From Paracoccus hibiscisoli (GTDB taxonomy: Bacteria > Pseudomonadota > Alphaproteobacteria > Rhodobacterales > Rhodobacteraceae): 64,000 nucleotides of DNA. Positions 43,107-58,174 of the stretch are shown here, piece by piece. Made by a program: the position numbers and the translations under genes. The stretch is taken from contig NZ_SUNH01000019.1 in assembly GCF_005048265.1 (NCBI RefSeq), positions 1 through 64,000 of the forward strand. The letters are read 5' to 3'. The notes below the pieces were generated by a model. It saw nothing but the letters and a program-made list of their open reading frames with translations. It had not been told where the DNA came from and did no database searches. Position 1 is the first letter of the stretch, and every line of letters starts with the position of its first letter.

Positions 43107-46100
43107 TCAGAACCCCTCGGTTTCCAGCAGGACGGGACGGACGCCGATGGTCCGCCGCGCGGTCAGACGCAGCCCCAGCCCGCCCCGCATCACCAGCACC
43201 AAGTCCGAGCCGGGCAGCGGCGTCACGGGGGCGGGCGCGGTGAACAGCACCCGCGTCCAGTTGCGCGTTGCGCGAACCGGGGTCAGCACGGTGGTGCCGG
43301 CGGCGCCGCGGATGGTGATCTCCTCGGGGGAGCAGCGCAGCCCCTCGATGATCTTGTTGCCCAGCCTCAGAGCCCCCTCGCGGCGCAGCGGCTCGGGGCT
43401 GTCCAGCAGCAGGCCCGCCACGCCCCATTGCCCGCCGGGCAGCGCCCGCCACAGCGCGATGACGCGCGACCGCGCCTGCGGCAGGGGCAGCGTATCGGCA
43501 CCGATGCCGCGCAGCGCCTCGGACGGGGACAGGTCGGAGACGACCAGATCGCCGGTGGGCAGCAGGGCCGTCTGCTCCAGGATCATCTCGTCGGGGGGAT
43601 AGGGGGCAGAGCCCGTGCGCGCAAAGCCTAGCTCGTCGATCAGTGCCGTCAGGTTGGCATGGCGCGAGGTGACGAACCGCGTGGCCTGCACTACCACCGG
43701 ATCGCTGCCGTCCAGCCGCGGCGCCATCAGGCGCAGGTCGTACATCGCCTGCGGGTCCAGCCGCAGGCGGGCGCCCAGGGACAGGCCGCCCGCGACATCA
43801 CCGTCGGGCAGGCAGGCCGCCGCGCGCACCGCCGCATTGACGCGCCGTTCCAGCGGCAGCAGCACGTCGTCGGGCGCCCAGGCCCGCAGCATCTCCAGCA
43901 GGGCGGCGCGGATGGGTCCGGCGGGGCCTGCGGCGGCGGGTCGGGGCGGCGGGTCGGTGCGCTGCACGTCGATGACCAGCTTGCGGCCATAGCGGGCGAC
44001 AATCTCCTCGACATGGCCGGTGGTGAAATGCACCCAGATCGGGTCATCGGTAAAGACCGTGTCGCGCCCGTCTACCGGCTCGGTCCGGCCGATATAGCGG
44101 GCCAGATCGCGGGGATCGAACAGGTATTCGTTCAGCCCGTCCTGGGGTTCGGGACCCGTCAGATCGCGCGGGGCGATGCGGAACCGATAGGTCTGGCGCA
44201 GGGGCGGCTGCCCCGAGGCCGGGGTCCAGCGATCGGGCGGCACCGCGGGCGGGCTGTCGGTGCCCCGCTCGTTCGATATCCAGGCCTGCCAGCGCCAGTC
44301 GATCTCCAGGCGGTATTCCTCGCCCGGTTCCAGCAGCACCTGACGGGCGGCGGCGACCGGCCCGGCATTGACCGTGTCGGTGACGGCCTGGGCCAGGGCT
44401 GTGCGGGCGGCGGCGTCCTGTTCGGCGGCCATCGTGGCGGCCAGGTCCGTTCCGCACAGCGACAGCAGCGTGACCCGCCGCCCCCCCGGCGCGGTGATCG
44501 CCAGATCGTCGATGTCGCGCAGCGCACGGGGCTGCGCAAACGCCATGACCGTGCAGGCCCGGCCCGCGGCATCCGTCACCCGGCCCTGGGGCGTCGCGGT
44601 CCAGCCGGTCCAGCCGCCCGGACCGCTGCTGCGCACGGTCACCGGCGGATCGTCGCGGCGCGGCACGCTGCCCTGAGCGATGGTGCAGACACGCAGCAGC
44701 AGCAGCTTGTCGCCGCCCTCGATGCGGACCGAGGCCATGCCCTCGGCCTGCAGGGACAGGGTGACGGCCCGATCCGGGTCGCCCGGCGCGCTGACCTGCT
44801 CCAGCACGGCGCCGCGCATGCCCAGGGCGGTGGCGCGAATTTCCTGACCGCCCAGGGCAACCAGATGCAGCTCTAGCCCCGCCAGGGGCCGGTCCAGGCC
44901 GATCACCAATCCTGCGGACGGGACCAGCAGTTCCGGCAGGCCGTCGGGGTCCATGCGCAGCGGGTCGGTGGCGGTGACGATATCCATCACCTCCAGCATC
45001 TGCGCGGGATCGGCGGGGACATAGGTTAGGCCGCGATGCTCCAGCCGCTTGTGGCTGCCGGGTTTCAGGTCGCGCAGGTCGTGACAGACCGGGCCGGCCT
45101 CGCGGGTTTCGCAGATGCGGAACAGCACGGCCTCGTGCCGCCCGCCGGTCAGGATCACCCGGGCGATGCCCTGGGACGCCGCCAGATGCAGCTCGACCGG
45201 GTCGCGGGCCGGGTCTGTGGCCTCGGCGATCAGGGTGCCGTCACCGGCATAGCCGCGCGCCGTGACTGGCCCGGCGCCGCTGAACACGGCCAGCGACACC
45301 GCCTGCCAGGGCGTGTCGGGGACCAGCTCGATCCCGGCATCGGGAAAGGTCAGCTCAGGCGTGCCATCCGCGCCGCGCCGGGCGGGGCTGGCGCCGCTGT
45401 CGACCCAATCGGCCAGGCCCATCCGCGTGCGGGGGTCGATCACCGACAGGCGGATGCCCGCATGGCGCAGCGTGGGCTGGTCCAGCGCGCCCTTGTCCAG
45501 GCCCCCGAAATCGACGCAGGCATCCGCCGCATGGGTGCTGAGCACGCAGACGCGATACAGGAACAGCGCCTGCGACTTGGTCTCGATCCGGATGCGGTCG
45601 ATATCGGCGGCGGCGTCGATGCGCAGGACCAGCGACCCCAAGGTCGCGCCGATGCTGGGCAACCTGCCGGTGCCGCCCTGCGTGTCGGTCCAGGTGACGT
45701 TGATGCCCTGCGTATCCCCGCGCAGCAGATGCAGCTCGACGATGCGGGCGGGACCCGAGGGGCGCAGGACCAGGCCCGGCGGGGCGATCAGGATATCGGG
45801 GCGGCCGTCCGTCCCGGCCAGGGCAGAGCCCTGCGACACGGCCACCTTGTCGGTCACCATGAAGGGTTGGTCGGGGTCGGCGGCCTCCAGGCGAAAGCCC
45901 GGGACGGATGCCTGCGCCAGCTTGCGATCCGGCGTCAGCCCGTCGAAATCAAAGCAGCGGCGCGGTTCGGGCCGGGCCGGGCGGCTGGTCCCGTCGCAGA
46001 TCAGCAGCAGCAGGCGGGCGTCGCGGATGCGCCGATCCAGACGGCCGGTCCAGGGCAGGGCGGTGCGGACCGCGCCCTGACCCGCCGCGGCCTGCGCCTC

Positions 46101-49100
46101 GGGCAGGCGATAGGCGCGCGTCAGCGGACCCGTGGGGCCTGTGACGGGGCCGGGCAGCTCCACCACCGCGCCCGGCAGGATCAGCCCGCCCGTCCCCGCG
46201 ATCATCCCGGCCAGCGCCTCGGCCGACAGGGTCATCGACCCCAGCTGCATCTCGGGGGCGCCGGTCAGCGCGAAGCGGCTGGGATAGGGGCCGGGGGCGG
46301 GGCCGTCGCGGCGCAGGCGGATGGCATGGGGGCCAATGGTGCACGCCATCTCTCCCAGCAGGCAGGCGCGGGCCGGGCGGGGGACGGGGCGGCACAGGTC
46401 TTCGACGGTCTGCGCCGGGTCGCCCGGCTGACTGGCGCCGCCATCGGTGGTGGGCAGCGCCCAGGCCCAAGGCTGCCAGTCCAAGAGCTTGAGGCTGGTC
46501 ACCTCGGCCCCGGAGGGCGCCTGCGGTCCCGCGCTGCCGGGCTGGCGGGCCGGGGACGTGGTCCAGACCGACTCCAGCGGGCGCGGCCCCGTCACCGGCG
46601 CCCCGTCGCGGGCGCGCAGCAGGCGGACATTGTCCAGGCGATAGGTGTATTGCAGCCGGTTCGACCCGAACCACACCGCGCCCGAGGGCTGCTCCAGCGG
46701 GTCGAACTGCCCGCCTGCGGGGATCGCGTCGCGGATATAGTGGCGGAAATTGACGACCGGCGCAGTGTCCGGCCAGACGGTGTGGTTGTCGCGCGGATCG
46801 GCACCGCGGTTGATCACCAGCTTAGGGTCGCGGGGGTCCGGCTCCAGCCGGAACAGGGGTTCGGCGCGCAGGGGCATGCCGTCGGGCGCGGCCTCGCCCA
46901 TGATGCGCCCGCCGCGATCGATCAGCGCGACCGAGGCCACCGGCGGCGGCGGGGCCTGGGGCGCGGCGATGGCCGGGTTGCCGATGCGGAACCGCACGCA
47001 GCCCGAGATCGAGAAGAAGAACAGGTCCACCCTGCCGCAGAACTCTCCGTCCATCCACAGCGCGCCGTCCTGATAGGTCAGCACGATCTCGCCCCGCGCG
47101 GCGATGGACACGACGACCAGGTCCAGCGCGCCGCGCACGAAGATGCCCGCCTTGATCAGCACCGGATCGGTGCCGAACCCCGCCAGCAGCAGGACCGAGG
47201 CCGACAGCCGGATCGGCCCCGCCTTCCACTCCAGCCCCGCGCCCGCGCCAAAGCCGACCGAGAACCCCTCGAAGGTGAAATCGGGATGCCCGCCCAGCTT
47301 GGTGATGCCGTCCTGCTGGATCATCAGATAGGCAAAGGCCCGCAGGTTCAGCGTGTCGGGCAGCAGCGTCAGCGTCACCGGCTCTCCGGCGCGGCCCTGC
47401 TGGCCGTCGCTGCCAAGCCGGACATAGTTGCCGCCGCCCTGATAGGGGAAACGCGCCGACATCGGCGCCACGACCGACAGGATCTTGGGGATGTCATAGC
47501 GGGCCGAGACGGCCACGCTGACCGCCTGGTCGTCGATGACGATCAGGCCGATGATCTGGCCGCTGCCGCCGCCCTTTTCCTTGGCGGTGCGGTCGGGAAT
47601 GGACAGCAGGCTGACCTCGACGGCAAAGATCACCTCGGGGTCGGGAAAGGCCACGACGATCATGCCCTGCGCCGACATGCTGAAGGACGCATCGGGCAGG
47701 GTGCCAACCACCGCGCCCAGGCCCAGGGCGTGGCGGTCCTTGCGGGGGCGGTATTTCGACTCGGGCGCGGTCGTCCACCAGCCGATCTCTCGGGCGACGA
47801 CGTCATCGGTGGCTGTGACCGCGCGTTCGCCGTTGATCGCCGTCATGCCGACAAAGCCGTGGATCGCCGCCCCCGACGGCCCCAAGGGGATGCCCACCGG
47901 GAACTGCACCTTGGCGTAGAGGCTGACGAAGGTATAGGGGTCGGCCCCGTCGATCTGGGCCATCGCAAAGGCCGCCTGCGCCTTGAGCTGCAGCGGGATC
48001 AGCTCCAGCTCCAGCCCCGCGCGGATCACCCCGCCCGGATCCTCGATGCGCAGGCGCCCCTCTCCGGTCAGGGTGGCGGGGATGTTCACCCGCGCCGTCA
48101 GCCCGCGCAGCGAGAAATCGACATCCGGGATGGGCGTCGCGTTGCGGGTGAAGGTGACGCGGATCACCGCCTCGGAGATCTCGACCACGCCGATGGTCAG
48201 CGCAAAGGCAAAGCGCGTCTCGACCCACAGCGAGCCCAGCCCCAGGGCGGTCTCGACCGCACGCAGCAGATCCTGCAGCGGGCCGTCGATCTTCCACTTG
48301 CCGGGGTCCTCGACCTGCATCGCGTCGGTCGGATATTCCAGACCGACCTGGTTCCAGAACCCCGACGCGCGGCTGTCATAGCGCACGCCGACGCCCTTGT
48401 AGCGGAACCGCACCGGGTGTTCGGGGTCTGTCGACAGGCCCAGGCTGCCAGTGTTCACGTGCAGCTTGGTGCTGTAATCGCCGGTCAGGCTGACCTTCCA
48501 GCCCTGTCCCGGATCGGCCAGGCTGTCGAATTCGGCGCGCGCCTCGATCGACTTGATCACCGCCTCCGAGCCGGGGCCGACCAGCGGACCACCCCCCAGA
48601 TCGGCCTGCGCAAAGGCCGTGCCCGCCGCCAGGGCGGCCAGCCGGCCCGCCCCCTCGACCGTGCCGGTATCGGCATCGACCTCGGACAGCAGCATCGGGC
48701 CAAGCGCCATGGCCGCGACCAGATTGGGCTGGGTGATGCGGATCAGCCCCGCCGGATCGCCGTCCGAGCGGATGCCCAGCTGAGATTGCGTGAAATCGGT
48801 CGCGTCGTCATGGGTCCAGGCGCCATAGACGGTCAGCACCTCGCGGCCCATGTCGACGGGCTGCCCGCCCAGGGGGGGCAGGGGTGTGACCGTGGGCGAC
48901 CAGGCATATTCGAATTCGGCCTTGGACGGGATCAGGTCGCGCAAGCCCTCTCCGGTCGGCTTGTCCCACGCGACCAGCAGGCGCATCCGGGTGTCGTCCT
49001 TTGGGCTCAGCGGCGGGACGGGCGCGGGCTGGGCCGCGGGGCCGGGCATCAGCATGCGGCGCCAATGCGGCTGGCGCGCAGAGGCCAGAGGCTCGGGTGT

Positions 49101-51281
49101 GGCCCCGGCGGCGGGGGTGCCGCCCACGGCATAGATGTCCACGCGGCGGAACTGGCGGCGGGTCTCCTCGCTCTCATGCGCGGTGTCGCGGCGGTCGGGC
49201 CAGCCGGTGCGGTCCACCAGCGGGCGCGTGCCGACATGCGCCCGGATCAGGCGGTCCGCGGCAGCCTCCTGCGCGGTCAGCATGTCGGTCGCGGCCCCGG
49301 AGGGCGGTCCGTCCTGTTCGCCCCAGAACGCGACACCGCCTGCCGCGACAGGGGTGCCCGCGCCCCCGGCATCGGTCAGCAGGCGGTGCGCGATCTCCAC
49401 GCGGTCGTGCGCCAGGTGGCGGTTCAACGCATCGTCGCCCAGATCGTCGCAGCGGCCGATCATCACGAAGCTGGCGCCCGGATACTGCGCGGCCCAAGCC
49501 CGCAGCTGCGCCTGGATGCCCGCATCCCCGGTCAGATCGTCGCGGGCCGGACGCGCAAGGCCCCATCCGGTCACCTCGGCCTTGGCGAACTGGAACAGCA
49601 GCTGGACATGGCGGTCGGGCCGGGCCGGGGTGGGCGGCGACGGCGGGGCAGTCCCCGTGTCGAAGGTGACCCGCGCCAGGATATTGTCGGGCAGCGCCAC
49701 GCCCCCCGGTTGCGCCGCGTCGATCCGCGCCCCGCCCGTCACGCTGCGATAGAGGCCCTGGGCGTGGAAATCGGTCAGGTCATAGCTGGCCTCGACCAGG
49801 CCCGGCTGCATCGGCACGGTGGGGTCGGTGGCGGCAAAGACCCCGCCCGTGGCCCCGATCCACAGCGGCGCATCGGTGATCTGCACCCGCAGCCGGGCCA
49901 CGCGCCTGCGGCCCTGGGCGTCGGTCTCTCGCAGCAGGACAAAGCGTTCCGTCGGGGCGTCGGGGCCGGTCAGCAGCGCGGGGTCCAGCACCAGGTCGGG
50001 CCGGGCCTGCGGCGTGCCGCCCGGCAGCAGCACCCAGTCAAAGCTGCCCGGAACGGCGGCGGTCGATTCCGCCAGCAGCCGCAATCCGGCCATGTCGGCC
50101 GCGGGGCCGGACAGATGCGCGACATTGCGGACGATCTGAGCACCGGCGGGGACCACGACCACATGGATCCGGGGAACCGACCCCGAGGCGACCATACGAA
50201 ACGTCACCTCGGGGTGGGACAGCCGCAGCCCAGAGGCCAGCTGTTCCTGCAGCGTGACGCGCAGCACTTGGCCGTGGCCGATCTGACCGGCGGTATTGAC
50301 GCCCTCGGTCACCTGCCCGTCGGGCCAGTGCCAGCGCGCGGTCCAGGACCCCGCCTCGGGCGGGGCGGAGAGGGTCAGGGCGGCGGCCAGGGTCACGCGG
50401 TCGTCCTGGTTGGCGCTGATCGCCACGGTCCAGGACGCGTCGCTGCCGGTGGCGGCCTGCGGGGTCTGGCCGTCCTGGGTGAACACGAATGTCGCGGGGT
50501 CCAACGCGGTTCGGCCCCACTGGACCTCGACCTCGCCCTGAACACCGCGCGGGGCGCCCAGCAGCAGGTTGCGCACCCCGCCCGAAAATCCGCCCCGCCC
50601 GATGGCGTTGGGGGGCGCATAGAACGTGGCCTCGGCGATGGCAAAGCCCATCCATTCCGCGCCCTGGCCCGCGCCGGTCACCAAGGGGGGCGACACGCTG
50701 TCGGACGCGTCGAACGCCAGCTGCGACAGCGTCATCGCGAATTGAGAGCGGCCCAGAAAGAAATGCGGCGGCGTGCAGGTCAGCGACACGACCCCGCCGG
50801 TGGGCGCCAGCGGGTCGGCGGCCTCGTCCGGGTCCACGAACAGCACGACCACCGCGTCATCCTGTGACGCGCGCGCCAGGCGCAGGGTGGCCCGCCCCTG
50901 GATCACCACATCCGTATCGCGCGTCCGCCGCACTAGGCGGCGCGGCACGGTGCCCTGTTCGGGCACGAAATCGGCCGCCACCAGATCGTCCAGCGTCAGG
51001 CTGAGGCCGTCCAGCACCAAATCCAGATGGAACCGCCCCTGCGGCGCGTCGAAAACGGCCAGCCGGAATGGAATGCCCGCCGTCACCCCCGGCAGGTCCA
51101 GCGTGCCGATGCCAAGGCGCAGCGGTTCGTCCGACGCCGCGCGCAGCGTGCCGCGATGCAGGGTGCCGCCCGCAAAGGGCGTCGACGTGACGCCATCGGT
51201 GGTGAACCGTCCGACGATCTCTCGGAGGGCCTGGGGCAGGATCTGGGGCAGAAGCGTGTCGAGCGTGTCCGAAAAAGGCAT
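43107..51281 (-). CDS. giant multidomain protein of unknown function with OmpA-like domain and tandem repeats
   Basis: 2724 residues with one uninterrupted frame. No signal peptide. Regions: a beta-rich N-terminus (1-560); an OmpA-like domain (about 560-720) with FQFAKAEV, MIGRCDDLGDDALNRHLAH and a final RRVDIYAV, keeping the Asp and Arg that bind peptidoglycan in OmpA; a long hydrophobic beta-rich segment (about 955-1430, with LGAVVGTLPDASFSMSAQG, LVVVSIAARGEIVLTYQDG and GCVRFRIG) that reminds me of DUF6603 proteins, unverified; three tandem repeats (about 1776-2200); and a C-terminal region with Pro-rich linkers. Function unknown. It lies 136 bases downstream of the siderophore operon on the same strand and runs into the 1147-residue partner. 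Confidence 0.8.
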   Translation of the reverse strand: MPFSDTLDTLLPQILPQALREIVGRFTTDGVTSTPFAGGTLHRGTLRAASDEPLRLGIGTLDLPGVTAGIPFRLAVFDAPQGRFHLDLVLDGLSLTLDDLVAADFVPEQGTVPRRLVRRTRDTDVVIQGRATLRLARASQDDAVVVLFVDPDEAADPLAPTGGVVSLTCTPPHFFLGRSQFAMTLSQLAFDASDSVSPPLVTGAGQGAEWMGFAIAEATFYAPPNAIGRGGFSGGVRNLLLGAPRGVQGEVEVQWGRTALDPATFVFTQDGQTPQAATGSDASWTVAISANQDDRVTLAAALTLSAPPEAGSWTARWHWPDGQVTEGVNTAGQIGHGQVLRVTLQEQLASGLRLSHPEVTFRMVASGSVPRIHVVVVPAGAQIVRNVAHLSGPAADMAGLRLLAESTAAVPGSFDWVLLPGGTPQARPDLVLDPALLTGPDAPTERFVLLRETDAQGRRRVARLRVQITDAPLWIGATGGVFAATDPTVPMQPGLVEASYDLTDFHAQGLYRSVTGGARIDAAQPGGVALPDNILARVTFDTGTAPPSPPTPARPDRHVQLLFQFAKAEVTGWGLARPARDDLTGDAGIQAQLRAWAAQYPGASFVMIGRCDDLGDDALNRHLAHDRVEIAHRLLTDAGGAGTPVAAGGVAFWGEQDGPPSGAATDMLTAQEAAADRLIRAHVGTRPLVDRTGWPDRRDTAHESEETRRQFRRVDIYAVGGTPAAGATPEPLASARQPHWRRMLMPGPAAQPAPVPPLSPKDDTRMRLLVAWDKPTGEGLRDLIPSKAEFEYAWSPTVTPLPPLGGQPVDMGREVLTVYGAWTHDDATDFTQSQLGIRSDGDPAGLIRITQPNLVAAMALGPMLLSEVDADTGTVEGAGRLAALAAGTAFAQADLGGGPLVGPGSEAVIKSIEARAEFDSLADPGQGWKVSLTGDYSTKLHVNTGSLGLSTDPEHPVRFRYKGVGVRYDSRASGFWNQVGLEYPTDAMQVEDPGKWKIDGPLQDLLRAVETALGLGSLWVETRFAFALTIGVVEISEAVIRVTFTRNATPIPDVDFSLRGLTARVNIPATLTGEGRLRIEDPGGVIRAGLELELIPLQLKAQAAFAMAQIDGADPYTFVSLYAKVQFPVGIPLGPSGAAIHGFVGMTAINGERAVTATDDVVAREIGWWTTAPESKYRPRKDRHALGLGAVVGTLPDASFSMSAQGMIVVAFPDPEVIFAVEVSLLSIPDRTAKEKGGGSGQIIGLIVIDDQAVSVAVSARYDIPKILSVVAPMSARFPYQGGGNYVRLGSDGQQGRAGEPVTLTLLPDTLNLRAFAYLMIQQDGITKLGGHPDFTFEGFSVGFGAGAGLEWKAGPIRLSASVLLLAGFGTDPVLIKAGIFVRGALDLVVVSIAARGEIVLTYQDGALWMDGEFCGRVDLFFFSISGCVRFRIGNPAIAAPQAPPPPVASVALIDRGGRIMGEAAPDGMPLRAEPLFRLEPDPRDPKLVINRGADPRDNHTVWPDTAPVVNFRHYIRDAIPAGGQFDPLEQPSGAVWFGSNRLQYTYRLDNVRLLRARDGAPVTGPRPLESVWTTSPARQPGSAGPQAPSGAEVTSLKLLDWQPWAWALPTTDGGASQPGDPAQTVEDLCRPVPRPARACLLGEMACTIGPHAIRLRRDGPAPGPYPSRFALTGAPEMQLGSMTLSAEALAGMIAGTGGLILPGAVVELPGPVTGPTGPLTRAYRLPEAQAAAGQGAVRTALPWTGRLDRRIRDARLLLLICDGTSRPARPEPRRCFDFDGLTPDRKLAQASVPGFRLEAADPDQPFMVTDKVAVSQGSALAGTDGRPDILIAPPGLVLRPSGPARIVELHLLRGDTQGINVTWTDTQGGTGRLPSIGATLGSLVLRIDAAADIDRIRIETKSQALFLYRVCVLSTHAADACVDFGGLDKGALDQPTLRHAGIRLSVIDPRTRMGLADWVDSGASPARRGADGTPELTFPDAGIELVPDTPWQAVSLAVFSGAGPVTARGYAGDGTLIAEATDPARDPVELHLAASQGIARVILTGGRHEAVLFRICETREAGPVCHDLRDLKPGSHKRLEHRGLTYVPADPAQMLEVMDIVTATDPLRMDPDGLPELLVPSAGLVIGLDRPLAGLELHLVALGGQEIRATALGMRGAVLEQVSAPGDPDRAVTLSLQAEGMASVRIEGGDKLLLLRVCTIAQGSVPRRDDPPVTVRSSGPGGWTGWTATPQGRVTDAAGRACTVMAFAQPRALRDIDDLAITAPGGRRVTLLSLCGTDLAATMAAEQDAAARTALAQAVTDTVNAGPVAAARQVLLEPGEEYRLEIDWRWQAWISNERGTDSPPAVPPDRWTPASGQPPLRQTYRFRIAPRDLTGPEPQDGLNEYLFDPRDLARYIGRTEPVDGRDTVFTDDPIWVHFTTGHVEEIVARYGRKLVIDVQRTDPPPRPAAAGPAGPIRAALLEMLRAWAPDDVLLPLERRVNAAVRAAACLPDGDVAGGLSLGARLRLDPQAMYDLRLMAPRLDGSDPVVVQATRFVTSRHANLTALIDELGFARTGSAPYPPDEMILEQTALLPTGDLVVSDLSPSEALRGIGADTLPLPQARSRVIALWRALPGGQWGVAGLLLDSPEPLRREGALRLGNKIIEGLRCSPEEITIRGAAGTTVLTPVRATRNWTRVLFTAPAPVTPLPGSDLVLVMRGGLGLRLTARRTIGVRPVLLETEGF
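44680..45956 (-). repeat. three tandem domain repeats within the giant protein
   Basis: Three units of about 135-140 residues follow one another (about 1776-1913, 1921-2059 and 2065-2200). Each opens with Cys-x-Asp-(Phe/Leu) plus an acidic or Gly-Leu turn (CFDFDGL, CVDFGGLDKG, CHDLRDLK), has a middle segment with DG-x-P-(D/E)-(I/L), and closes with a strand ending in (L/F)-x-(Y/F/L)-R-(V/I)-C (LFLYRVC, VLFRIC, LLLRVC). The paired Cys at both ends suggest a disulfide or metal site per unit. The folding pattern looks like a beta sandwich, perhaps carbohydrate-binding, but this is inference. Confidence 0.7.
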
Positions 51282-51417: not shown

Positions 51418-52227
51418 TCACCCCAGGGCGGGCAGGGCCTGGCGCTGGCAGGCGCGGATGCCGACCAGATCGGCGGCCATCCGCGCCGCCGGATCGGGAC
51501 CGAACCATTCCAGCGACCCCTCCAGCCCGTCGGGCAGGCCGGTCAGGAACCGGCGGTAATCCGGCGCGCCCTGCAGCAGCGGGCACATGCCCCGGCGCGT
51601 CCCCGCGGGGTCGTGGACATTCGCGGGCGCAAAGACCGACAGGGCCGCGCGGTCGGTCACGCTTTTCAGATGCAGGTGCAGGACATGGGGGCGCAGCCGG
51701 TGCAGGGCCGCCAGCGGGTCGGCGCCTGCCTCCCAGATGTGCAGGACGTCGAAGTTCAGCCCGATGGCCGGGTGATCCAGCGCGTCCAGCAGCGTCTGTG
51801 CGGTGGCGGGGCTGTCGGCCAGGGTGCCGGGATGCGTCTCTATCGCCAGGCGCAGGCCATGGGCCGCCGCCAGATCGGCCACCCGGCGCAGGTCGGCGGC
51901 GATGGCGCGGCGCTGGTCCGCATCGGCCTGGGCCGCGCCGATCGCACCTGCGAACAGCCGCAGGCACGGCGCGCGCCACTGCCCGGTCAGATCGACCAGT
52001 GCGCGGGCCTGCGCCAGGTCGAAGTCCGGCGTTCCGACCGGCAGATAGCCCGCCAGCATCGGCACGCGTGGCCGCCGGTCCAGCGCGGCCCAGGCCGCGC
52101 GCAGCGCCTGCGCATGGGGGGCCCAGATCTCCAGCCCGTCAAATCCGTGGCGCGCGACATAGCCCGCCAGCCCCGCCGCCGTCACCTGCTGATGGCGAAA
52201 GGCCACTGACGCCGCATGCACCCTCAT
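51418..52227 (-). CDS. asbF: 3-dehydroshikimate dehydratase-like TIM-barrel protein (AsbF)
   Basis: 269 residues, sugar-phosphate isomerase/epimerase fold, compared with about 280 for Bacillus AsbF. AsbF converts 3-dehydroshikimate to 3,4-dihydroxybenzoate, the catechol of petrobactin. Metal ligands fit the AsbF pattern: Glu in LAIETHPG, Asp in GLNFDVLHIW, His in LHLHLKS and Glu in EGSLEWFG. The identification relies strongly on its being coupled (ATGA overlap) to the asbDE-type gene; from sequence alone another epimerase is possible. It is the last gene of the siderophore operon. Confidence 0.85.
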   Translation of the reverse strand: MRVHAASVAFRHQQVTAAGLAGYVARHGFDGLEIWAPHAQALRAAWAALDRRPRVPMLAGYLPVGTPDFDLAQARALVDLTGQWRAPCLRLFAGAIGAAQADADQRRAIAADLRRVADLAAAHGLRLAIETHPGTLADSPATAQTLLDALDHPAIGLNFDVLHIWEAGADPLAALHRLRPHVLHLHLKSVTDRAALSVFAPANVHDPAGTRRGMCPLLQGAPDYRRFLTGLPDGLEGSLEWFGPDPAARMAADLVGIRACQRQALPALG

Positions 52228-53459
52228 GCGCGCGCGCCCAGCCAGCGCGCGAACCATTGCGCGACGGTCGCCTTGATGCCGCGTTCCAGCGCGGTCAGAT
52301 CGTCCAGATCGTGGAGGCTTTGGGCCAGATCCTCGGGGCGGCCCGTGCGGGAAAAGGCCACGGCGCGGCGATGGACGGCGTTCAGCCCGGCATGCAGCGC
52401 CGCGATGCGATCGCAGCATTCCTCGAACGCGTCATGGTCGCGGCCCTCGATGTCGCCAAAGATCGCCAGCGCATGCTCATAGGCGTATTTGCGGATCGCG
52501 ATGACCGGCAGCTCGCGCAGCGCGGGCTCCAGATCGGCGCGGGGCAGGGCGGTGGCGTGGGCCTGGACCACGCGGCGGATCGCGTCGATCAGCGGCACCG
52601 CCTGCGCGTCGAAGGTCGCGTGATGCATCGCGGCGATGGCCGCATCGCTGGCGGGGTGGGCTGCGTCCGCGTCGATGGCGAAGCCGCCCGCCACGCTGTC
52701 CCGCAGAAAGGCGCGGCGCAGGTCGGCGGCGGGCAGCGGCCCCTCCCACCGGAAATCGGGGTCGCGCATCAGCCAGGTGTCGGGATCGGCGGTGGGTTCG
52801 ATCAGCGCGTAATGCGGAAAGGGGTCCTGCGCGAATTTGTTGTCGCGTTGCGGCAGCAGGAACAGGTCGATCATCGGCATCACATGCCGCCCCGGCCGCC
52901 AATCGGCCAGCAGCGCATGCAGCCGCGCCAGGTTCGCGGATTTCGGCGCCCCGTCGTCATACCAGCGCGTGACCCGCAGCCCGAACAGGCGCTGCGCCCA
53001 ATCGGCATAGAAGCCGTGGTCGATGTCGGGCGCGTGATAGGACAGGCGCATCCGGTCGTCGACCACCACCTGCCCGTCCCACAGGCCCAGATACATCGGG
53101 CGATGGTCGATGCCGCCACGATCCTTCAGCGCCTGGCACAGGCAGCTGACGACGCAATGGACCTTGATGTCGACGGGCTCCTCGGGCGCGGCGGGGGTGG
53201 TGCCGGACAGGCCCTCGGCCAAGGCGCGGACGGTCAGGCCGGGGGCGCGGTCAAAGGTGTCCTCGGCCATGGGCAGGCCGTCCTCGTCCAGGTGCAGCAT
53301 CAGCGTCATCAGGGCCACGGAATCCAAGCCCAGGTCATGGCCCAACCGCGCATCGGGGCCAAAGCGGTCCATGCGCGGGCAGGCCATCGGCCCGGACAGG
53401 ATCTGCGCCAGGCGGGCCATGACGGCATCGGGGGTGGGCACGGGGCGGGGGTCGGTCAT
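52224..53459 (-). CDS. fused aryl-carrier protein and 3,4-dihydroxybenzoyl transferase (AsbD-AsbE)
   Basis: 411 residues. Residues 1 to about 85 form an acyl-carrier domain with the phosphopantetheine site at Ser47 (GLDSVALM). From about 95 on, the protein matches AsbE (VHCVVSCLCQALKDRGGIDH, SYHAPDIDHGFY, EPTADPDTWLMRDPDF). In Bacillus AsbD carries 3,4-dihydroxybenzoate and AsbE transfers it to spermidine; the two are separate proteins of roughly 91 and 327 residues, so the lengths here add up to a clean fusion. Loading requires a phosphopantetheinyl transferase encoded elsewhere. It overlaps both neighbours by 4 bases. Confidence 0.85.
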   Translation of the reverse strand: MTDPRPVPTPDAVMARLAQILSGPMACPRMDRFGPDARLGHDLGLDSVALMTLMLHLDEDGLPMAEDTFDRAPGLTVRALAEGLSGTTPAAPEEPVDIKVHCVVSCLCQALKDRGGIDHRPMYLGLWDGQVVVDDRMRLSYHAPDIDHGFYADWAQRLFGLRVTRWYDDGAPKSANLARLHALLADWRPGRHVMPMIDLFLLPQRDNKFAQDPFPHYALIEPTADPDTWLMRDPDFRWEGPLPAADLRRAFLRDSVAGGFAIDADAAHPASDAAIAAMHHATFDAQAVPLIDAIRRVVQAHATALPRADLEPALRELPVIAIRKYAYEHALAIFGDIEGRDHDAFEECCDRIAALHAGLNAVHRRAVAFSRTGRPEDLAQSLHDLDDLTALERGIKATVAQWFARWLGARA

Positions 53460-56170
53460 GAGGTGGGCTCCAGCAGGGTCTGCGCCAGGGCGCGGCGGGC
53501 GATCTTGCCATTCGCGCCGCGCGGCAGGGCGGTCATCGGGAACAGGCGGGCGGGACGCTGGCGGGGTGACAGGCGGGCGGCCAGATGCGCCTCCAGTGCG
53601 GCGGGGGCGATGTCGCCCGCATAGGCCAGCGCCGGGCGCTGATGGGCTGCGGGGTCGGGCATGGCAAAGGCCACGGCATCGGTGATGCCGGGCAGGGCCA
53701 GGGCCGCGGCCTCGATCTGGGCGGGATAGACGTTGAGGCCCGCGACATCGATCACCTCGGCCGCGCGGCCCGCAAAGATCACGTGCCCGCGCGCGTCGAT
53801 CACGCCCAGATCGCCGGTCTGGATGGAATCACCGCAGCCCTCGACCACGACCGGGCCGGGCGCGTCCTGGCCAGCGCTCAGCCGGACATGGGGCAGGGGC
53901 GCGCCCATGTCGTCCGGGCCGGAGGGATCGGTCGCGATGGCCAGGCACCCGGCCTCGGAACAGCCATATTGCTGGAACAGGTGGCGCGCGGACCCGCGCA
54001 GCGCGTCGAACCAGGGCTGTGGCAGCACCGTCCCCGAGGACATCACCGCATGCAGCCCCCCGCGCCCCGCCAGCCGCGCCAGAACATGCAGCAGCGGCGG
54101 CGCGGCATAGAGGATCGGGTCCCTGACCGCCGCCAGATCGCGCAGGATCGCGCGCGGGTTCGCGCTGTCCAGCACCACTGGCGCGTGCCCGCGCGCCAGC
54201 CCGACCAGCACCCCCGCGATTAGGCCATAGGAATGGGTGATGGGTGCGGCGATCACCGGGGTCATCGCGGCGGCCTGGGGGAAGGCTGCGATATAGGCGT
54301 CGATCTCGGTCTGGATGGCGGCCCAGCTGCGGGCGACGATGCGCGGCGCGCCGGTGGTGCCGGAACTGGTCTGGATCAGCACGCCGCCCGGCGTGTGGGG
54401 GGCGTCCTGACCCAGGGGGGTGACGCCGCCGTCATGGACCAGCCGGTCGCAGCCCGCCCGCCGGGCCAGATCGCGCGCCTGATCGGGCGGGGTTTCCGGG
54501 TGGATCGGGTGGCAGGACGCGCCCTGCGCCCGCAGCCGCAGGATCAGCGCCAGGCAGGCGGCCCGGTCGGTCAGGTGCAGAGCGACGCGCATCCGGTCGG
54601 GATCGCCCGGCAGGTCGGGCAGCGTGAGGCGCATGGGGTCGATGGGCCTGTCGTTCAGGAAGAAGCGGTCGGACATGGGCGGGGCTTTCAGCGGGTTCGG
54701 GACGGGATGGGGGGCGGACAGGCCCAGCAGGGCTCCGCCCAGGCGTTCGGCGGGATAGGTCGGCGCATGGGTGCCCAGAGACGGGGCGGCGGGCAGGGCC
54801 GCGCGCACCGCCGCCCAGAATTGCGGCTCGGGCAGCAGGGCGTGGCGGTGCAGCAGGTCGGCCAGATCGGCCAGCACATGGGTCACCAGGCAATCCATCA
54901 CCAGATCGCGCAGATCGCAGGCCCCGCCCATGCGGTGATAGGTGCCCGGCGGGGCGGTGGCGATATCGGGCAGCCAGGGCGTCAGGTCTGGCGCCAGGTC
55001 GGGCCGCGCCAGGCGGTCCGGCACATATTCCAGGCTTTCGCTGAAATCGCGGGCGATCAGGGCGCGGGGCCAGCCGTCGTCATGGGTCATCAGCAGGTTC
55101 TGGCCATGCGCCTCCAGCGCGATGCCGTGATGCGCCATCAGGTGCCAGACCGGGGCCAGCACCGCCAGGAAGCGCGCCAGCCAAGCCCGCGTTCCGTGCC
55201 GCGCCAGCCAATCCGCGATCAGCGGGCGACCGTCGGGTTCGCAGAGCGACAGCGCCGACAGCGGCACCGCATCGTCGGGCGGGGCGCTGCGGCGGATCGC
55301 GGCCAGCCGCCCGCCCAGCAGGTCGGGGGCCACGATCGCCGCGCCATGTTCGGGCAGGACCCTCAGCCCCGCCAGCGCCGGGTCCGACGCGACCACCGCC
55401 TGTAGCCAGCCCGAGATCGCGGGCGCCACCGGCACAGACCAGGGCACCAGATCGCGGACCGAGGAGGTCACCCCCACCCCAAGCGACAGCTTGAGGTGAT
55501 CGCCCCCCGCCACCGGCGCCAGCGTCCGCAGGGACGCGGTGGCCCGCATCAGCGGCCCGCCACCCAGCAGGCGCAGCCGCCCGGCGCGCCGCCAGCCCGC
55601 GATCACCGGATCGTCGCAGAGCCTCGCCCATTGCCAGGGATGGACCGGGATCGCGCCCGGTGCCGACAGGCCCGCCGCCACATCGCTGCCCGCACGCCGG
55701 ATCAGCGCGGGGTCCAGGCCCAGCCACAGCGGCGCGAAGGCATTGGCACCTTCGGGACCATAGGCGGCGTTGTCGGCATCGCTGAAGCCGATGCGGGCCT
55801 TGAAGCCGGGATGATAGGGGTGGCCCTCAATCAGCGCGGCCTCCAGCGCGGGGCCGGTCAGGCGCAGGCGGTCCGCGCGCAGCGGCCCCGCGGCGCGCAG
55901 GAAATGCGCGCTGCGCCGCATGGCGCGCAGCAGCGTCGCGGGGTCATGGCCCGCCTGCGCCAGCCCCCGGCTCAGGGCGGGAAGGGTCAGCGGGCGTCCG
56001 CGCGCGTCCTGCGGATCGGCCAGCAGGCGCACCCGACCGCCCGGCTGGCGGCGCCAGGGCACGTGGATCAGCAAGGCGCCCACGGTCCAGCCGCCCGGCG
56101 AGGGCTGCAGGATGCCCTCGAAGGCCAGCGCTTCCAGCGTCTGGCGCAGGGCGCGGCGCTCAGGCGACAT
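53456..56170 (-). CDS. fused siderophore synthetase and 3,4-dihydroxybenzoate-AMP ligase (AsbB-AsbC)
   Basis: 904 residues in one frame. Residues 1 to about 495 are an NRPS-independent siderophore (NIS) synthetase of the IucA/IucC family (PLLGG region, KLSLGVGVTSS near 225, EAHGQNLL near 352). Residues 499-904 start at an internal Met (SDRFFLNDRPIDP) and form an adenylating enzyme: SSGTTGAPRIV near 598, YGCSEAG near 734, TGDLGVID near 785 and the catalytic Lys in NGKIARRAL near 890. The second half equals AsbC in length and begins where AsbC would start. No good ribosome-binding site precedes Met499. AsbB joins the second spermidine-catechol arm to citrate; AsbC activates 3,4-dihydroxybenzoate. 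Confidence 0.88.
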   Translation of the reverse strand: MSPERRALRQTLEALAFEGILQPSPGGWTVGALLIHVPWRRQPGGRVRLLADPQDARGRPLTLPALSRGLAQAGHDPATLLRAMRRSAHFLRAAGPLRADRLRLTGPALEAALIEGHPYHPGFKARIGFSDADNAAYGPEGANAFAPLWLGLDPALIRRAGSDVAAGLSAPGAIPVHPWQWARLCDDPVIAGWRRAGRLRLLGGGPLMRATASLRTLAPVAGGDHLKLSLGVGVTSSVRDLVPWSVPVAPAISGWLQAVVASDPALAGLRVLPEHGAAIVAPDLLGGRLAAIRRSAPPDDAVPLSALSLCEPDGRPLIADWLARHGTRAWLARFLAVLAPVWHLMAHHGIALEAHGQNLLMTHDDGWPRALIARDFSESLEYVPDRLARPDLAPDLTPWLPDIATAPPGTYHRMGGACDLRDLVMDCLVTHVLADLADLLHRHALLPEPQFWAAVRAALPAAPSLGTHAPTYPAERLGGALLGLSAPHPVPNPLKAPPMSDRFFLNDRPIDPMRLTLPDLPGDPDRMRVALHLTDRAACLALILRLRAQGASCHPIHPETPPDQARDLARRAGCDRLVHDGGVTPLGQDAPHTPGGVLIQTSSGTTGAPRIVARSWAAIQTEIDAYIAAFPQAAAMTPVIAAPITHSYGLIAGVLVGLARGHAPVVLDSANPRAILRDLAAVRDPILYAAPPLLHVLARLAGRGGLHAVMSSGTVLPQPWFDALRGSARHLFQQYGCSEAGCLAIATDPSGPDDMGAPLPHVRLSAGQDAPGPVVVEGCGDSIQTGDLGVIDARGHVIFAGRAAEVIDVAGLNVYPAQIEAAALALPGITDAVAFAMPDPAAHQRPALAYAGDIAPAALEAHLAARLSPRQRPARLFPMTALPRGANGKIARRALAQTLLEPTS

Positions 56171-57809
56171 GGGACAGGCGCTGGCGGGCCGCCAGGGCGG
56201 GCAGGGGGTTGGCCACGCGGATCATCGGCGCGCGCTCTCCGGGGATCAGCAATTCGTCCACGCCGCCCAGCTGGGTCAGCAGATTGCCCTTGGCCGCCAG
56301 CGTCGGGCGCGTCAGCCAGGCCTGCGCCAGCGCGCCGCCGTGGCCGGGCAGGGCGGTCAGCCCCTGCAGATGCGCGGCCAGCAGGGTCAGGCCCTGCGCC
56401 TCGGGCAGCGATCCGTCCAGGTCCATGCGGTGGATCACGCCGAACACCTGGTTCACGATCAGCGCATAGGTCAGCGCATCCTCGGCCTCGGTGCGCGGAT
56501 AGACCAGCTGGGGGATGGCGCGCAGATCGGGGGTGGCGCGGTCCTCGGCCACGTAGAAGCCCTGGTTGTCGCGGATGTCGCAGCGCGTGGGCAGGCCCTG
56601 CGACAGGTCCAGCAGCGCGTTCTGCTGATGCGCCTCGACCGCGATGCCGGTCGTATCATAGAGCCGGACCACCGGCCCCACTGCGCAATCCAGATAGGCG
56701 CGCAGCCACGCCACCGGGTCCAGCCCCGCCATGACCTGCGCCAGAAGCGACAGCCGCCCCGGCAGCGGCTCAGTCACCAGCCCGCCCACCTGCATCACCT
56801 GTCCGCCGCGCGGCTGGCGCCAGGGGTTGTCGCGCAGGATCACCTCCAGACCCGATGGCCCTCCGTCCGGCAGGCGCAGGGTCATCCAATGCGGATCGGA
56901 CACCAGCCGCAGCGGCCCGAACCGCCCGGCCATTGCGGCGATGCGCGGGGCCATCGCGGCCCCGGCCAGCATCTCGTGGCGCTTGTTCACGCGCTGCGAG
57001 TTGGTGATGGTCACGGGCAGCGACATCTTCAGCTGCCAGGGGCTGTCCGCGCGCCACAGCGTCCGCACGGATGAGGTCGCCCACCAATGGGGCCCCACCG
57101 GCCCCCGGTCGCGGATCACCCCCCGTGCCAGCAGGGCCGCGATGCGCGGGTCGTGCCGCGCCCGGTCCCAGGCCAGCGGATGGACCGGCAGCAGGTGGCG
57201 CCCCTGCGCGGGGGCATCAGTCATGCCGGGCAGGGACAGCGCCAGGTCGGGGTCGGTCGCCTCGATCAGATCAGCGGGCAGGTCCAGCAGGTGCAGCCGC
57301 AGCGCGCCGCGCCAGTCGGGGGTCATCGCGCGCTCCTCGGGCAGGGTCATGCCGGACAGCGCCTTGGGGCAGGGGTGCATCCAGTGGCCAAAGACCATCG
57401 CTTGTTCGGCGGTCAGGAAATCGGCCGGGCCGTCCGGTCGCGCCAGGCGGTCCCGGACCAGCGTCCGGATCCGCTGATGGCTGGCGCGCACCCGCCGGGC
57501 CAGCGCCTGCCCCGTCGGCCCGTGCTGGCGGTCCAGCCGCTCCAGGATCAGGGCCAGCGCCTGCGCCTGGGACAGGACGCGCGCGCCCGCCGGGCCGTGA
57601 TGGATCAGCGCGTCCCACCGCGCAGGTCCGGTGGCCATGGCCGGACCCGCGACCTCGATCCAGCCGCCTGCGACCGGCACAATCCGCCCGCCGCCGCGCA
57701 ATTCGCGCAGGTCGCAGATCAGCAGCGCCCGAAGGCTGGCGGCGTCCGCGATGGCTGCGGGATCAAGAGGGGCCGTCGGATGGTGGGGACCGGGGAAGGG
57801 CATCGGCAT
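56160..57809 (-). CDS. asbA: NIS siderophore synthetase, AsbA-like
   Basis: 549 residues of the IucA/IucC family. The ATP and carboxylate-binding elements are visible: HPCPKALSGMT near 150, KMSLPVTITNSQRVNK near 260, and EAHQQNALLDL near 390. AsbA of Bacillus condenses citrate with spermidine as the first committed step of petrobactin synthesis. ATG 57803 is a second possible start. The stop overlaps the next gene by 11 bases. It is the first gene of the four-gene operon, behind an AT-rich promoter region. Confidence 0.87.
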   Translation of the reverse strand: MPMPFPGPHHPTAPLDPAAIADAASLRALLICDLRELRGGGRIVPVAGGWIEVAGPAMATGPARWDALIHHGPAGARVLSQAQALALILERLDRQHGPTGQALARRVRASHQRIRTLVRDRLARPDGPADFLTAEQAMVFGHWMHPCPKALSGMTLPEERAMTPDWRGALRLHLLDLPADLIEATDPDLALSLPGMTDAPAQGRHLLPVHPLAWDRARHDPRIAALLARGVIRDRGPVGPHWWATSSVRTLWRADSPWQLKMSLPVTITNSQRVNKRHEMLAGAAMAPRIAAMAGRFGPLRLVSDPHWMTLRLPDGGPSGLEVILRDNPWRQPRGGQVMQVGGLVTEPLPGRLSLLAQVMAGLDPVAWLRAYLDCAVGPVVRLYDTTGIAVEAHQQNALLDLSQGLPTRCDIRDNQGFYVAEDRATPDLRAIPQLVYPRTEAEDALTYALIVNQVFGVIHRMDLDGSLPEAQGLTLLAAHLQGLTALPGHGGALAQAWLTRPTLAAKGNLLTQLGGVDELLIPGERAPMIRVANPLPALAARQRLSHVA

Positions 57810-58174
57810 CTCGGACCTGGGGGCTGCGGGGGCGGCCGTGTGGTGGGTTCGAGCTTGCGGATGCTGGCCTGCGGGTCATGCTATATCCAATAAAAACTGT
57901 CAACATATACAATCGCAGGATGAAGGCGGCGCGCGGCATCCCGCCGCCCGCGTCCCCATGTCGTCATTTCGGTGGGTATTGGGGCCGAGGGGGTCTGTGG
58001 GGCAGGTCATCGCCGGGGTTCGAGGGGGTCTGCCCTGCGGGGCAGGGGCCGCGCGCGTTGTCCGCGCCCCGCGTGGGGTGCCGCAGCCCTCCGGACGGGA
58101 CCGAGCGTGAGGGCCGATGGGCGGCCGATGGAACCCCCGTCAGGCCAGCCTTCGCCCCAAGGGCGCGCGGGGCC
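57810..58174 (-). promoter_or_regulatory. upstream region of the siderophore operon
   Basis: A 365-base gap without a gene. Bases 57880-57925 are strikingly AT-rich. On the minus strand they hold a perfect TTGACA (57903-57898) and, 17 bases on, CATGAC as a weak -10. TATA-containing segments flank it (57882-57886 and 57905-57909) and could be part of an iron-regulator site (Fur, RirA or Irr), but no consensus match is clear. The rest (57930-58174) is GC-rich with a short hairpin at 58030-58045 (CTGCCC/GGGCAG), probably trailer of the upstream operon. Confidence 0.45.

Follow-up and report, generated by a model that had tools for sequence, protein, structure and literature searches.

What does Paracoccus hibiscisoli make with four overlapping genes that hold all six functions of a petrobactin-type siderophore pathway, and how did the two gene fusions in this set come about? 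The genes lie on the minus strand, from 57809 to 51418, of the first 64,000 nucleotides of contig NZ_SUNH01000019.1 (assembly GCF_005048265.1), the whole stretch that was analyzed and that we call the window. We consider it highly likely that the locus is a complete petrobactin-type operon for a nonribosomal peptide synthetase (NRPS)-independent siderophore (NIS), organized in four overlapping genes, and that its B and C parts were fused by loss of a stop codon independently of the similar fusion in Methylobacteriaceae. In the open reading frame (ORF) listing of the window, four ORFs follow one another head to tail in the order A, B-C, D-E, and F, the letters being those of asbABCDEF:

56160-57809, minus strand: AsbA-like NIS synthetase A, 549 aa, with IucA/IucC and FhuF-like domains
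53456-56170, minus strand: AsbB-AsbC fusion, 904 aa, with an NIS synthetase (residues 1-498) and an acyl/aryl-adenylating domain (499-904)
54674-54676, minus strand: codon of Met499, the B-C joint, at the position where free AsbC proteins begin
52224-53459, minus strand: AsbD-AsbE fusion, 411 aa, with an aryl carrier domain (Ser47) and a DUF6005 transferase (97-408)
51418-52227, minus strand: AsbF-like 3-dehydroshikimate dehydratase, 269 aa, with the start chosen to match AsbF
57875-57916, minus strand: AT-rich block upstream of A with TTGACA at 57903-57898, a possible promoter or iron-regulator site

The preliminary description of this stretch had proposed this content and the asbABCDEF order, with C fused to B, E fused to D, and overlapping genes, and the domain matches bear it out. 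Gene A overlaps B-C by 11 bases, and B-C overlaps D-E by 4 bases. The ORF listed for F, which begins at 52419 and comprises 333 aa, is very likely too long; a start at 52227 (MRVHAASVAFRHQ) aligns with the start of the AsbF chain and gives a 4-base overlap, ATGA, of D-E and F. Both joints had also been placed correctly, as the codon of Met499 coincides with the start of free C proteins, and a D-E joint near residue 90 fits the carrier serine at residue 47 and a DUF6005 match that begins at residue 97.

Gene content, order, fusions, and homology are direct observations, and the main domain matches to Pfam and to solved structures are much too strong to be due to chance. In Pfam, IucA_IucC and FhuF match both A and the first half of B-C, an AMP-binding domain matches the second half of B-C, a xylose-isomerase-like barrel matches F, and DUF6005 (PF19468) matches D-E with 392 bits at a cut-off of 25. 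Apart from A and B-C, the 3.96-Mb genome has no IucA/IucC match. The closest solved relative of B is AsbB (3to3), which is also the top PDB match of the predicted B-C model (mean predicted local distance difference test score, pLDDT, 86.2), and the best solved relative of F is AsbF (3dx5, E 4.8e-44). F retains the residues aligned to E142, H144, K200, and E253 of AsbF (counted on the alignment), which we take to be catalytic, and, in the alignments of A and B, the motifs of NIS synthetases with a presumed catalytic role in AcsD appear to be preserved. The carrier domain of D-E is a weaker match (18.2 bits in Pfam at a cut-off of 20.8), and the D region scored 31.4 bits against the NCBIfam AsbD model, below the cut-off of 100, with the GLDS motif of the carrier serine intact; the C half of B-C matched an NCBIfam acyl-CoA synthetase model below its cut-off. 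The locus holds two NIS synthetases of the AsbA and AsbB types, an aryl-adenylating AsbC, an aryl carrier AsbD, an AsbE (DUF6005) transferase, and an AsbF dehydratase. A 3,4-catecholate/citrate siderophore, as expected in the preliminary description, is the natural prediction from this gene content, and, judged from the sequence, the locus very probably makes a petrobactin-type siderophore.

The fused layout is not special, as it is already in print. In Methylorubrum extorquens AM1, the mll locus, an asbABCDEF homologue with two sets of gene fusions, consists of mllA, mllBC, mllDE, and mllF, and the Paracoccus locus has the same four-gene layout with B-C and D-E fused; according to that paper, no characterized homologue of mll had shown the B-C fusion before, and the D-E fusion is common to the rhodopetrobactin and roseobactin loci (PMC11317620). 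The mll locus differs in its acetyltransferase, DUF2218, and signalling genes (PMC11317620), and the Paracoccus loci yielded no relatives of the first two. In local alignments of nine Methylobacteriaceae-type relatives (AM1 not in the set) with the present locus, the C halves are 49-53% and the B halves 38-40% identical. The rhodopetrobactin locus of Rhodopseudomonas palustris shares the D-E fusion and the gene order (PMC11317620, Table 1), but has separate B and C genes and, according to the same paper, an acetylated (homo)spermidine linker. Bacillus asbABCDEF has all six functions in the same order, but in six genes, and the window locus is 31-42% identical by domain to the loci of Sutcliffiella and Shouchella. 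The order A, B, C, D-E, F is also that of the petrobactin-like/roseobactin-type loci in Leisingera, Roseobacter, Tateyamaria, and the 78-kb plasmids of Phaeobacter inhibens (L145), but B and C are separate genes there. In L145, a receptor gene, uptake genes of the ATP-binding cassette (ABC) type, and another ABC transporter lie alongside the cluster.

The occurrence in this lineage is not special either, since petrobactin-like clusters of Rhodobacterales and a partial one of P. marcusii have been published. Epibacterium ulvae has a petrobactin-like cluster with low-iron chrome-azurol activity that was compared with Phaeobacter (PMC7989816), and for P. marcusii CP157, the four genes asbABEF were described and asbCD reported as absent (PMC8273931). 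The latter is probably the same cluster as ours; the CP157 genome itself lies outside our comparison. In P. marcusii CGMCC 1.8602 (L023), C is fused to B and D is fused to E, and because this strain has both fusions, the asbC and asbD genes reported missing from CP157 are most simply explained as hidden in fusions, which is probably the case. From P. denitrificans, two catecholate siderophores of other kinds are known, parabactin and enterobactin (PMC13251462). Literature term searches, which covered few subscription papers, gave no description of a fused set in Paracoccus among the matches listed. Both fusions and the four-gene layout are already known, and Paracoccus came to this known kind of layout by a separate route.

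Among the 80 best of 567 loci kept in a similarity search with B-C, eight share 64-74% best-segment identity with B-C, and every one of these belongs to a Paracoccus record. A sample of 394 genomes of the family Rhodobacteraceae gave three with DUF6005 (AsbE), one of them the window's own, and a search of 125 Paracoccus genomes gave 16. B-C forms a single frame in 15 of these 16 (shortened in one), the sole exception being G426 (L109) with separate divergent B and C genes. The unfused, very divergent petrobactin-type cluster of this genome (L109 6669-15782) has its own TonB receptor. In a member of another genus of the family (G222, L116 9499-15192), B-C is fused, and its 20-kb stretch contains no asbF match. 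After nine duplicate loci had been dropped, 67 distinct loci held both B and C, and these are in one frame in 25 loci: 15 from Paracoccus, L116, and nine of the Methylobacteriaceae type, including one Hyphomicrobiales metagenome-assembled genome. In 56 of 61 loci, DUF6005 is preceded by an in-frame carrier motif, so the D-E fusion is the norm and only the B-C fusion is unusual.

Searches with eight F queries gave no full-length asbF match in L052, L058, L061, L065, L074, L103, L116, and L144; the first five of these are among the 51 loci outside the Paracoccus-type group. With asbF absent, L116 and these five loci would need another source of 3,4-dihydroxybenzoate. L144 is the fused cluster on plasmid p296221 of Paracoccus aestuarii (the same cluster as L103), with genes for plasmid replication and partition close by; its A is annotated as two ORFs, and no asbF stands next to D-E. 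In L108, the A and B-C frames are shortened.

Where did the B-C fusion of Paracoccus come from? A tree of the 67 loci, built on the joined proteins A, B, C, E, and F, places the fused rows in two groups apart from each other. That of Paracoccus stands beside other Rhodobacterales, nearest to Leisingera, Roseobacter, and Tateyamaria, and the Methylobacteriaceae-type fused group lies inside Rhizobiales, near Aureimonas and a Boseaceae. One clade of all fused rows was rejected by approximately unbiased (AU) tests with a selection of 33 rows and the five proteins joined (p-AU 1.98e-45; L109, as a long branch, and L116 left out) and with a selection of 29 rows, C only, under a mixture model (p-AU 1.7e-4; L109 left out, L116 kept), and neither test gave the Paracoccus fusion a common ancestry with the mllBC-type fusions. 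B and C share the same frame in 5 of 10 split loci examined (L028, L029, L030, L042, and Sutcliffiella L040). In the first four, which are from two Tateyamaria and two uncultured Rhodobacteraceae, AAA GGA TAA/TAG CNG ATG stands between asbB and asbC, and the Paracoccus fusions read through at the spot of this asbB stop. Among relatives of the Methylobacteriaceae fusion, the split ones examined (L049, L050, and L052) have C in a different frame. Two origins are supported because the joint sequences and the frame relations of the split relatives differ. The Paracoccus B-C fusion appears to have arisen apart from the Methylobacteriaceae fusion, probably when an ancestor of the Paracoccus clusters lost the one in-frame stop between its adjacent asbB and asbC genes. 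A fusion that arose once and then moved between Paracoccus and Methylobacteriaceae would agree with the identical fused layout in both groups, but with one clade rejected in two analyses and with differing joints and frame relations, we regard such a single origin as very improbable and have rejected it. In Methylobacterium tarhaniae (L052), the B and C frames differ despite a place inside the fused group, which could be a reversal or a frameshift.

The joint itself has a Met in every fusion, 16 of the Paracoccus type and 9 of the Methylobacteriaceae type. When pairing with the anti-Shine-Dalgarno sequence was used as a test for an internal start, the joints paired more strongly than other internal Mets in both the Paracoccus type (16 versus 249, p 0.0023) and the Methylobacteriaceae type (9 versus 127, p 9e-6), with rows that share ancestry and with the better of two joint Mets taken for L024 and L102. 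A free C product from a joint start is possible in Paracoccus-type relatives of the window on this evidence. In the window, an internal start at Met499 is not supported, as its joint pairs with +0.4 kcal/mol, 12 of its 13 other Mets are as strong or stronger, and a Shine-Dalgarno-like site is lacking. All nine Methylobacteriaceae-type fusions (L031-L038 and L041) have kept a GGAG-like site and ATG at the joint, which makes an internal start that yields free C plausible there.

Enzyme activities, product, export, regulation, and uptake are inferred here by comparison with petrobactin biosynthesis, in which two 3,4-dihydroxybenzoyl-polyamine arms are joined to citrate. By this scheme, F would convert 3-dehydroshikimate to 3,4-dihydroxybenzoate, which the C half of B-C would adenylate and load onto the carrier half of D-E, at Ser47 after phosphopantetheinylation. 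The E half of D-E would pass the 3,4-dihydroxybenzoate to a polyamine, most likely spermidine, and A together with the B half would attach two aryl-polyamine arms to citrate. A decarboxylase found in the genome search exceeds the carboxynorspermidine family cut-off by little (414.6 versus 409.05 bits) and would fit a spermidine supply by the carboxyspermidine route; for spermidine synthase, the genome gave no good match, only a weak one of 26 bits. The product would then be secreted, and Fe(III) would be regained via a TonB-dependent receptor encoded elsewhere in the genome, on contig C112.

The candidate for this receptor comes from the related loci. A TonB-dependent receptor family adjoins asbF in 7 of 16 Paracoccus-type loci (L022, L025/L110, L026/L114, L044/L115, L104, L106, and L108), in a neighbour survey with a simple gene caller that can miss genes and with two of the 16 loci lacking asbF. 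In the window, by contrast, a 2724-aa ORF (43107-51281, minus strand) with a sub-threshold match to DUF6603 as its sole match follows directly downstream of asbF. The genome has four TonB-receptor barrel matches, and the putative receptor on contig C112 (L124 8485-10419), which has TonB plug and barrel domains, is 57-75% identical to the seven asbF-adjoining receptors. It is adjoined by a binding-protein-dependent ABC transporter (L124 2867-8272; solute-binding protein, two-domain permease, and ATPase), which we take for a ferric-iron-type transporter. All 14 Paracoccus fused loci that include sequence upstream of the operon have TTGAC close to the start of A, and it lies within an AT-rich block in the 12 Paracoccus fused loci first looked at. 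In L116, L109, L043, and L047, the AT-richest block of the region, the only one viewed, contains no TTGAC.

Several observations weigh against a petrobactin operon with an independently acquired fusion. In the 67-row tree, the unfused Paracoccus L109 is the long-branched sister of the fused Paracoccus group; the best C-only tree needs four changes of fusion state, of which only two are forced by starred branches; and the Paracoccus stem is long (1.03 changes per site in the 33-row tree) and could distort the trees. The best solved relatives of A are the aerobactin and achromobactin enzymes IucA and AcsD. Nothing beside the locus in the window was recognised as an exporter or receptor gene, and the NCBIfam models nearest to the putative C112 receptor are of the haem/transferrin type, all below cut-off. 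The enzymes have also changed. Of the columns that are at least 95% conserved in the rows outside a given group, 67 of 396 have changed within the Paracoccus group, compared with 23/431, 11/366, 7/404, 13/408, 44/404, and 26/423 in six other groups, for which the Paracoccus rows were excluded; 39 of the 44 changes concern protein A of the Oceanimonas group, an excess probably due to truncated A ORFs in two of its four rows (L064 and L067). His replaces the Tyr aligned to Y217 of AsbF in 14 of 14 Paracoccus-type rows with F, the hinge motif of C is AE instead of DD in all 16 Paracoccus-type rows, and several deletions in A and B have shortened the Paracoccus NIS parts. Such changes at conserved positions may mean that the chemistry differs or is weakened. 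Because of the long stem and these lineage-wide changes in the AsbF tyrosine, the AsbC hinge, and the NIS domains, the Paracoccus cluster could be a retuned branch whose product is not petrobactin but a citrate-based aryl siderophore of new structure, and in which the fused gene of many members, though not the window's copy without a Shine-Dalgarno-like site, may also yield free C from the joint start codon. We consider this doubtful, but credible enough to be kept in mind. The same changes could point to a cluster that is decaying or inactive in the Paracoccus lineage, in line with the divided A and missing F on p296221, the shortened frames of L108, and the lack of F in L116. This is improbable, as the window's four genes are open and overlapping, with the carrier serine and the residues aligned to AsbF retained, B-C is still one open frame in nearly all Paracoccus loci, and loss of F at 5 of the other 51 loci means that its absence is no mark of the Paracoccus lineage; siderophore production by P. 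marcusii CP157 is also mentioned, as a private communication, in PMC8273931.

Best matches to aerobactin or achromobactin enzymes had been named in advance as a refuting sign, and the match of A to IucA and AcsD would suit an aerobactin- or achromobactin-type NIS cluster with chance neighbours. For solved structures, this sign is indeed present in A, but the list of its solved relatives contained no AsbA chain, and A scores higher against the AsbA-position proteins of three Bacillaceae petrobactin-type loci (L040, L076, and L077; 246-269 bits) than against the NIS proteins of 22 loci (L079-L100) on stretches with no C, D, E, or F match (86-182 bits). As matches of the AsbB, AsbF, DUF6005, and carrier types occur together and in asb order, we rejected this identity on gene content and regard it as practically negligible. 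A product like methylolanthanin, a lanthanide chelator with 4-hydroxybenzoate arms and not a siderophore, would suit the mll-like layout A, B-C, D-E, F, and the genome encodes a pyrroloquinoline quinone (PQQ) alcohol dehydrogenase (L137) above the family cut-off with the motif WDYDG, which we take to be a signature of lanthanide-type XoxF. However, the shared layout says little about the product if the fusions are independent, as they appear to be, and an AsbF-like gene is present, though mll also has one. Relatives of the acetyltransferase-like and DUF2218-position proteins were absent at E 1e-4 from the 17 Paracoccus-type loci, the part of the genomes searched, with GNAT-like acetyltransferase queries (one member tested) and a DUF2218 query picked by position that has no family match itself. 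Moreover, the highly similar cluster of M. extorquens PA1 yields rhodopetrobactin B, with no methylolanthanin detected (PMC13251462). We therefore judge a lanthanide chelator to be an improbable product, and a petrobactin-type siderophore operon with an independent B-C fusion stays our preferred reading.

This reading extends the fused petrobactin-type layout to Paracoccus. Two enzymes of the pathway were apparently joined twice in separate lineages, and precursors that are one stop codon away from the fusion persist in living relatives. It also offers a simple correction to a published Paracoccus petrobactin cluster that was said to lack two genes, and illustrates that searches for one gene per function miss fused steps. 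For a genus in which other catecholate siderophores are known from P. denitrificans, the locus provides the prediction of a petrobactin-type siderophore.

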